A DNA stretch of 64,000 nt from Pseudomonadota bacterium (GTDB taxonomy: Bacteria; Pseudomonadota; Alphaproteobacteria; Micropepsales; Micropepsaceae): NCBI GenBank assembly GCA_021804785.1, contig JAJZGY010000002.1, positions 1 to 64,000 on the forward strand, written 5' to 3'. A model generated the notes under the pieces. That model was not told where the DNA came from. It was given only the letters and a program-made list of their open reading frames with translations, and made no database searches. Position numbers and translations under genes: made by a program. The stretch's first letter is position 1. Each line of letters opens with the position of its first letter. Below are positions 5,289 to 61,412 of the stretch, piece after piece.

Positions 5289-6035
5289 TCAAACCTGCAT
5301 GCGCGCGAAGCTGCGGGCGGCCAGCAGCAGAAGAATGAATGACAGTGCGAGCGTTACAGAAAGATCCACGAGCAGTGAAAACTGTGAGTTCCCGGTCAGA
5401 AGCCTGCGCAGGGCATCGACGCCATAGGTTAGCGGATCCATCATGGCCAGCACGCGCATGGCCGACGCCACGCGGTCCAGCGGGAAGACCGCGCCGGAGA
5501 GGAAAAACATCGGCATCACCACAAAATTCATGACCAGCGGGTAGCCCTGCATATCCCGCATCAAGGTGCCCAGAAAGAGACCGAAGGCGGCAAATAGAAA
5601 GGCAAGACTGAGCCCGGCACCAACTGCCGCGATCACCCCCCACCAGTGTTCCGGGCGAAAGCCGAGCGCGATGGACAGGAGTAGCACCAAAAGTCCCTGC
5701 AAAGTCGAGGTCGTGGAGCCGCCGAGCACGCGTCCGAACATGATGGCCACGCGACTGACCGGTGCCACCAGCGTCTCCTTCAGAAAGCCAAACTGGCGAT
5801 CCCAGATCAGATCCATGCCCGAAAACACCGAGGTGAAAATGATACTCATCGCCATGATGCCCGGCGCCAGGAAGTTCAGGTAATTCCCAGCCCCCGCGGC
5901 CTGGAACACCCGTCCCAGACCAAAGCCGAGGGCGACGAAAAAGAGCAATGGCTGGCCCAATGAGGCGACGATGCGAGCAGGGCTTCGCCAATACCGCTTC
6001 AGCTGCCGCAGCCACATGACATAGATTGCGCCCAT
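5289..6035 (-). CDS. ABC-2 type transporter permease
   Basis: Six-TM ABC-2 protein; adjacent ATPase gene on the same strand. Confidence 0.85.
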   Translation of the reverse strand: MGAIYVMWLRQLKRYWRSPARIVASLGQPLLFFVALGFGLGRVFQAAGAGNYLNFLAPGIMAMSIIFTSVFSGMDLIWDRQFGFLKETLVAPVSRVAIMFGRVLGGSTTSTLQGLLVLLLSIALGFRPEHWWGVIAAVGAGLSLAFLFAAFGLFLGTLMRDMQGYPLVMNFVVMPMFFLSGAVFPLDRVASAMRVLAMMDPLTYGVDALRRLLTGNSQFSLLVDLSVTLALSFILLLLAARSFARMQV

Positions 6036-31779: not shown

Positions 31780-31841
31780 GGCCGACTATATCAAGCCGCG
31801 GCCGAGCAATGCGGGCTCCGGCGGCGTTTCTGTGGATAAGT

Positions 31842-31935
31842 GAGAGCCCGGCCACGACCCAAAGCGGATTCGTTACGGCTGCTTCCTTCCGGACCTGACC
31901 GGGTTGGCGATAGCTTCGCCCGTAACCGGACTCCC
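31842..31935 (-). ncRNA. ffs: Signal recognition particle RNA, small bacterial type (4.5S)
   Basis: Minus strand contains GGTCAGGTCCGGAAGGAAGCAGCC apical domain; ends GGGAGTCCGG / CCGGGCTCTC pair over 10 bp (two G-U); located upstream of dnaX. Confidence 0.93.
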
Positions 31936-60177: not shown

Positions 60178-60795
60178 ATGCAACTGCCCCATGCCCTTGC
60201 CATCGCCGAAGGTGTCCAGCTCTGGCCTGAGGCGCTCGATCAGTCACAGCAAGCAGAATTGCTGGGGGCGGTACTGTCCGCGGTTGAAAAGGCCCCCTTC
60301 GTGCACCCAACCATGCCACGCACCGGCACCCCCTTTTCGGTGACCCAGACCAATTTTGGCACCTTGGGCTGGGTTTCCGACCGCGACGGCTACCGCTATC
60401 AGGAACTCCACCCCAATACCGGTAAGCCTTGGCCACCTATCCCCCCGATGCTCATCAGCCTCTGGCACGCGGCCCTGCCCGATGCCCCTGATCCGCAGTG
60501 CTGCCTGGTCAATTATTACGACGCCGGTGCGCGTATGGGGTTGCATCAAGACCGCGACGAGACCGCGCTCGATGTTCCAGTCCTGTCGGTGAGCCTTGGC
60601 GCGAAGGCGCTGTTTCGCCTTGGGGGCACAAGCCGGAAAAGCCCAAGCCGCAGCCTGACACTGCACTCCGGTGATCTGCTTGCCTTCGGTGGCCCCGCGC
60701 GACTCGCCTTTCATGGCATTGATCGCATCGTAGCGGGCAGCTGCGGTCTCGTTCCTGATGGCGGACGTATCAATCTGACACTGCGTCGGGTCTGA
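60178..60795 (+). CDS. alkB: Alpha-ketoglutarate-dependent DNA repair dioxygenase AlkB
   Basis: CCLVNYYDAGARMGLHQDRDETALDVPVLSVSLGAKALFRLGG; LAFHGIDRI; RINLTLRRV. Confidence 0.94.
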   Translation: MQLPHALAIAEGVQLWPEALDQSQQAELLGAVLSAVEKAPFVHPTMPRTGTPFSVTQTNFGTLGWVSDRDGYRYQELHPNTGKPWPPIPPMLISLWHAALPDAPDPQCCLVNYYDAGARMGLHQDRDETALDVPVLSVSLGAKALFRLGGTSRKSPSRSLTLHSGDLLAFGGPARLAFHGIDRIVAGSCGLVPDGGRINLTLRRV

Positions 60796-60805
60796 GCGAT
60801 CGCGC

Positions 60806-60841
60806 AAAAAAGACGCCCGGTCAGGGGAATGACCGGGCGTC
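60806..60841 (-). terminator. Rho-independent terminator (minus strand)
   Basis: gacgcccggtca-ttcccc-tgaccgggcgtc perfect 12-bp stem followed by TTTTTT on minus strand. Confidence 0.9.
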
Positions 60842-60953
60842 ATGCGCCGTTACGCGCCGGTGTCGGGAGGGGATGACCGACACCACGAGAGGGCTCCATC
60901 CAGCTTGCGAGCGGGGGGGCAGTGCCTGCTGGATGGCGTCGTCGCCCGTCTCG
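60806..60953 (-). ncRNA. Candidate small RNA with C-rich hairpin loops and intrinsic terminator
   Basis: Minus-strand hairpins: 9-bp stem 60896-60904/60928-60936; 8-bp stem 60859-60866/60877-60884; 12-bp terminator 60812-60823/60830-60841 followed by U6; possible promoter TTGAAA-N17-TAGGTA at 60960-60988. Confidence 0.55.
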
Positions 60954-61079
60954 TCCTACTACCTATGCAGCGAGGCAACAGTTTTCAAGTATTTTCTACA
61001 TAAGATGACGTCATGATACAATTTTAATGGACAGTTGCTAAAACGGTACAGTTTGTTGGCGACAATCAATCCGCAAGGC

Positions 61080-61412
61080 CTAGGCGCCGGGCTGGCAGAC
61101 AATGCCCTTTTCCGCGAGGAACGGGCCAAGCTCGTCGGCTTCGTACATTTCACGCAAAATGTCCGAACCTCCGACAAATTCACCTTTGACATAAAGCTGG
61201 GGAATGGTCGGCCAGTTGGAGAACTCTTTGACACCCTGACGAACCTCTGGGTCCTTGAGAACATCCACCGACTTAAACTTTACACCCAGGCTGGAAAGGA
61301 TCTGCACCGCGACAGAGGAAAAGCCGCACTGCGGAAACACTGGCGTGCCCTTCATGTAAAGCACGACGTCATTATCTGCGATTTCCTTGGCGATCTGATC
61401 ACGCACGCTCAT
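61080..61412 (-). CDS. grxD: Grx4 family monothiol glutaredoxin
   Basis: VVLYMKGTPVFPQCGFSSVAVQIL, WPTIPQLYVKGEFVGGSDILREM. Confidence 0.96.
   Translation of the reverse strand: MSVRDQIAKEIADNDVVLYMKGTPVFPQCGFSSVAVQILSSLGVKFKSVDVLKDPEVRQGVKEFSNWPTIPQLYVKGEFVGGSDILREMYEADELGPFLAEKGIVCQPGA

Follow-up and report, generated by a model that had tools for sequence, protein, structure and literature searches.

The window, the 64,000-nucleotide stretch of DNA analyzed here, carries between grxD and alkB on its minus strand a conserved, covarying RNA gene that has its own promoter and terminator and is homologous in sequence, architecture and ancestral locus to RusT. RusT (CCNA_R0199) is a 118-nt Hfq-bound small RNA (sRNA) of Caulobacter crescentus with four stem-loops, whose gene lies between lolA and xth, and it was reported in 2024 with homologs in Caulobacteraceae only (PMC11005374). 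On computational evidence, the window RNA is very likely a member of this family. With slightly less confidence, though still as a highly likely explanation, we propose that the locus as a whole encodes a RusT ortholog. An earlier note on this DNA had proposed a free-standing, trans-acting type of sRNA with exposed C-rich loops, a proposal that is supported by the conservation, the covariation, the separate promoter and terminator, and the homology to RusT.

Fold and conservation of the RNA

The predicted RusT-family sRNA spans about 147 nt (60806..60952, minus strand). Its 3′ end is the T6 tract at 60806, whereas the 5′ end near 60952 is inferred from the position of the -10 element and from the start of Caulobacter RusT. 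The folding energy of this RNA is -78.6 kcal/mol compared with -54.4 +/- 3.9 kcal/mol in dinucleotide shuffles (z = -6.2); the 185-nt span originally delimited gives a z of -5.1. The predicted fold comprises four stem-loops: SL1, SL2, a short SL3 and the terminator. The three hairpins first noted, with their loops and the T6 tail, lie at the positions given for them, as do the convergent alkB and the stop codon of grxD. New here are SL3, the outer part of SL1, another conserved element upstream of the promoter, and the conservation itself.

SL1 (60887..60952, minus) consists of an outer stem, for which single-sequence folding yields 4 bp or more in 88 of 90 relatives, and an inner hairpin, CCATCCAGC...GCTGGATGG, whose pairs change on both sides among relatives. 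Its loop (GCACUGCCCCCCCGCUCGC) contains a C7 tract (60913..60919, minus) that is a candidate second seed. This C-tract loop motif occurs in 72 of 90 order members by a strict definition and in 75 by a relaxed one, mostly with a C-run of 6-8. The fold and covariation define SL2 (60858..60885, minus), the predicted seed hairpin and equivalent of RusT SL2. Its loop, UCAUCCCCUC (60867..60876, minus), is the predicted target-pairing seed by virtue of its conservation and its match to RusT, and the core AUCCCCUCC is found in 87 of 90 order members. SL3 (60844..60857, minus) is a short hairpin, GCGC-GUAACG-GCGC, that is the positional counterpart of RusT SL3, and 87 of 90 order members have such a hairpin. 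Finally, the Rho-independent terminator (60806..60841, minus) has a 12-bp stem, a UUCCCC loop and a U6 tail, and 11 of its 12 pairs vary on both sides among relatives.

Searches of relatives with blastn reveal a conserved block that spans both the promoter and the RNA. Among the weakest of these matches is one in G012 that resembles coding sequence rather than sRNA, and another in G039 that belongs to a diverged member of the family next to lolA and xthA (L114). A covariance model built from 18 sequences (R1) matches the window at 60806-60960 (E = 9.9e-37) and detects it in 68 of 69 genomes of the genus Rhizomicrobium, in 93 of 96 order genomes and in 60 of 60 good-quality assemblies, nearly always as one strong match, as for a single-copy gene. 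Weak second matches occur in a few genomes; one of them, at G002:C2:276889-277069 (+) (E = 5e-5), accompanies the main copy and is a possible paralog or a chance match.

Covariation and conservation in relatives, the check that had been suggested for the stems, come out clearly in favor of a structured RNA: the stems change by compensation, and the loops stay fixed or nearly so. Specifically, in an alignment of 90 sequences fitted to the model, 94.9% of the cells are paired and 26 of 36 pairs show double changes. The doubly changed cells number 486, as against 133 in shuffled controls and no more than 120 when the partners are slid. Compensatory changes appear in 18 of the 36 pairs even in a MAFFT alignment, which is not fitted to the structure. 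The quality of the sRNA alignment would support a new Rfam family. In the suggested Rfam scan, no family reaches threshold at the sRNA; at the gathering threshold, the whole window yields only the bacterial small SRP RNA (RF00169), at 31840-31934 (-).

Kinship with RusT

The genome used for comparison, which we take to be that of Caulobacter crescentus, was located by a PopZ sequence (100% identity), and its identity rests on this match and on its fit to the published RusT features. The lolA-xth region of this genome contains a predicted RNA of 118 nt with four stem-loops (L232:1342-1459), in which C53 falls within the CCCC of AUCCCCUCC, in agreement with the description of RusT (PMC11005374). 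The seed of RusT is SL2 (nt 45-57), where C53 has been shown by compensatory mutation to take part (PMC11005374), and this seed region corresponds to the SL2 loop of the window RNA, with AUCCCCUCC common to both. A second covariance model made from Caulobacteraceae RusT sequences only (R2) has its best match in 464 kb of the window genome at 60808-60901(-), with 26.3 bits (E = 7.7e-5), whereas the next match reaches 12.2 bits (E = 0.58). R1 in turn detects the RNA in the Caulobacter loci. We therefore file the window RNA in the RusT family on the basis of the lolA-xth locus, the fit of the 118-nt length and C53, and the mutual matches of R1 and R2.

Besides the four stem-loops, the SL2 seed loop, the terminator and the ancestral lolA-xth locus, RusT and the window RNA have in common a TTG-type -35 element and a GCATA near the -10 element. 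They differ in length (118 versus 147 nt) and in neighborhood, the window RNA having moved beside grxD and alkB. Furthermore, SL3 agrees in position but not in sequence, and SL1 of the window RNA is longer and carries the nearly invariant C7 loop where Caulobacter RusT has only CCGACCCGC. The C tract of SL1 may be old and have been lost in Caulobacter, because relatives of the family f147 (L213 and L216) have a C7-C8 tract there.

This difference gives rise to an alternative in which the RNA shares ancestry with RusT but has another main job, with the C7 loop of SL1 as its chief seed for G-tract mRNAs in this order, possibly without Hfq. The high conservation of this C-rich loop across the order, against the CCGACCCGC of Caulobacter, is what such a role would predict, and both sX13 and GsrN act through loops of this kind, the former independently of Hfq. 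However, the SL2 seed shows equal or greater conservation, and no other part is shared as well with Caulobacter; in addition, the window genome encodes Hfq. We consider this alternative unlikely, although it is the strongest competitor to a RusT ortholog that pairs through SL2.

Genomic neighborhood and class-wide distribution

Neither of the genes that flank the RNA in the window is part of it: alkB (60180..60795, plus) is a convergent open reading frame, and grxD (61080..61412, minus) lies upstream. An alkB homolog adjoins the RNA in 45 of 75 order loci. By contrast with the window arrangement, the RNA of other genus members lies downstream of puuD, a MOSC protein gene or a class III aminotransferase gene, and faces alkB or a phosphatase gene. 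The place beside grxD is probably a recent rearrangement with no functional meaning. These comparisons bear on the suggestion that the RNA is a 3′ UTR of grxD, or is derived from one by bolA-grxD read-through. Although the two are on the same strand, with about 127 nt between the grxD stop codon and the predicted sRNA start, dozens of species that have grxD elsewhere conserve both the RNA and its promoter. We reject this reading as most improbable because, of about 66 genus members, only three (G000, G020 and G005, the window species and two relatives) have grxD beside the RNA.

Loci with the order lolA-puuD-RNA-alkB within the genus (L098 and L102) link the lolA locus to the grxD/alkB locus. 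When R1 was run against 290 genomes sampled over the class, with no use of gene information, clear matches were obtained in several other families. At least 25 of the 28 resulting loci whose flanking DNA was read (L098-L125), which include a few from the window genus and have short flanks that cut off some genes, have lolA and/or xthA no farther than about 1.5 kb away. The rest carry a class III aminotransferase gene, which is the only such neighbor in L111. In many families, an unnamed acidic protein ending in NIF or NLF is encoded between the sRNA and xthA (L205-L209 and L099-L121). Several diverged members at lolA/xthA (L112, L114, L116 and L122-L125) have no C7 loop, and ahead of their terminator is a short hairpin, for example GCTCC-GGAGC; these may form a distinct subfamily.

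The same loci serve to judge membership in the alpha-r7 family (RF02342), whose RNAs also have C-rich apical loops and whose model gives the best sub-threshold Rfam match to the window RNA, over its full length (22.2 bits, E = 0.015). This score is far below the Rfam gathering cut-off of 60 bits, and the model does not pick the window locus genome-wide. Moreover, alpha-r7 resides at polA (PMC3771888), whereas the window RNA is at grxD/alkB and its relatives are at lolA/xthA; among the loci that the alpha-r7 model does pick, none of four has lolA, xthA or a class III aminotransferase gene. Both model score and locus thus reject alpha-r7 membership, to which we assign only a minimal chance.

The occurrence of RusT in further orders, where the locus is shared and the seed hardly altered, is new and places it among the broader conserved trans-acting sRNAs of Alphaproteobacteria. 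We somewhat favor a history in which RusT is an ancient, class-wide sRNA kept at lolA-xthA as the RNA arm of NtrYX control of envelope and iron functions, while Micropepsales-type lineages acquired or retained a further seed, the nearly invariant C7 tract, which broadens or alters the target set. Whether RNA-mediated control of envelope transporters by NtrYX goes back to the ancestor of the class can now be tested, as can the contribution of the second, C7 loop.

Predicted regulation and comparison with other C-rich sRNAs

The segment upstream of the RNA (60960-61060) is AT-rich, as had been noted, with 38% GC compared with 61% in the window. Two promoters had been suggested there, and only one of them is borne out: TTGAAA (60988-60983) followed after 17 nt by TAGGTA (60965-60960) is strongly conserved, and the adjoining spacer ACTGTTGC is conserved too, whereas TTGTAT...TAGAAA is not. 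By its boxes, the sRNA promoter is of the sigma70 type. Conserved among 86 sRNA promoters are a -35 element TTGNAA, a 17-nt spacer with the motif CTGTGGC, and a -10 element TAnnnT, and a GCATA just 5′ of the -10 element and overlapping it is nearly invariant. The TTG and TGT are invariant by selection, because the set was gathered with a TTG...TGT pattern, but the remaining letters were not preselected, and the positions flanking these triplets are strongly conserved too. Farther upstream, counts in 88 relatives and alignments define another conserved element (61023..61050, minus; ...CTGTCCATTAAAA), around CTGTCATTAAAA, which is a candidate regulator site even though its first half is weak in the window genome.

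Published motifs for ChvI (TTGC-N3-GCAA) and CenR (TGA-N8-TGA) do not match the sRNA promoter boxes. PHO-box half-sites are spaced by 11, whereas those here are 16-17 apart, so that CTGTCAT is not read as a PHO box. Elsewhere, the gap between ntrC and ntrY (L262 ~5860-6010) contains two CTGTG[GT]C motifs, one of them within the palindrome TTCACGCTGTGGCGTGAA; they resemble the motif in the sRNA promoter and, as a post hoc lead, constitute a possible NtrX operator.

In Caulobacter, NtrX binds and represses the RusT promoter, RusT is induced by iron starvation or chelation or by zinc, Hfq binds at SL3, and the RNA represses TonB-dependent receptors and OmpW in an Hfq-dependent manner (PMC11005374). 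By analogy, we lean toward a mechanism in which the window RNA, under NtrYX control, represses TonB-dependent receptors with the assistance of Hfq. In one cluster of the ntrBC-ntrYX type, the window genome has hfq together with genes for two NtrC-type regulators, of which the second is placed as NtrX, and the conserved promoter boxes appear compatible with NtrX control. Hfq would bind the RNA, probably at SL3, a site that is only predicted since the sequences of SL1 and SL3 differ from those of Caulobacter RusT. The SL2 loop AUCCCCUCC, and here also the C7 loop of SL1, would then pair with G-rich Shine-Dalgarno or start regions in mRNAs that encode envelope proteins, TonB-dependent receptors among them, and thereby block translation.

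Target evidence comes from 14 TonB-dependent receptor genes, recognized by plug domains in one genome and given mechanically chosen starts, and from a background of 294 other genes in 464 kb. GGGG lies no more than 20 nt from the chosen start in 9 of 14 receptor genes versus 49 of 294 (17%) background genes (p = 1.6e-4). This result depends on start choice: the first ATG gives p = 4.6e-5, whereas the first possible start codon gives p = 0.06-0.07, which is not significant. The shift in hybridization energy between receptors and background is weak (p = 0.024 for SL2 and 0.07 for SL1). One receptor, L238 (G000:C81, near 9570), has its start covered by GGAGGGGATGA, which matches SL2 perfectly over 11 nt with a hybridization energy of -24.2 kcal/mol, lower than that of any of the 294 background genes. 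This match to the SL2 loop involves the ribosome-binding site and start of the gene, GGAGGGGATGATG, and makes L238 a candidate first target. The G-tract enrichment and the L238 match fit receptor repression, short of proof, and G-rich start regions could serve other C-rich sRNAs.

Several such RNAs are known. The earlier note had compared the loops to those of alpha-r14 and CcsR, an analogy that does not extend to family: CcsR carries the CCUCCUCCC motif, which is absent from the window RNA, and ar14 is missing from the Rfam scan. NfeR1 of the alpha-r14 family likewise pairs through C-rich loops at translation starts, but it has three CCUCCUCCC motifs, where the window RNA has zero, and is Hfq-independent (PMC10746234). 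Similarly, PmaR of Agrobacterium uses a single-stranded C-rich loop as its pairing site, although it adopts a spoon-like structure and is restricted to Agrobacterium and one close relative (PMC6234868). In GsrN of Caulobacter, a C-tract loop pairs with G-rich mRNA sites, but this sRNA is controlled by the general stress sigma factor, activates katG and is limited by sequence to Caulobacteraceae (PMC5869019). Finally, sX13 of Xanthomonas resembles the window RNA in its stable stems and apical C-rich loops, which target G-rich motifs near start codons, yet it is located at polA and is Hfq-independent (PMC3771888), and no homology between the two was found in this analysis. Thus, sX13, GsrN, NfeR1 and PmaR work in a comparable manner but are families other than that of the window RNA.
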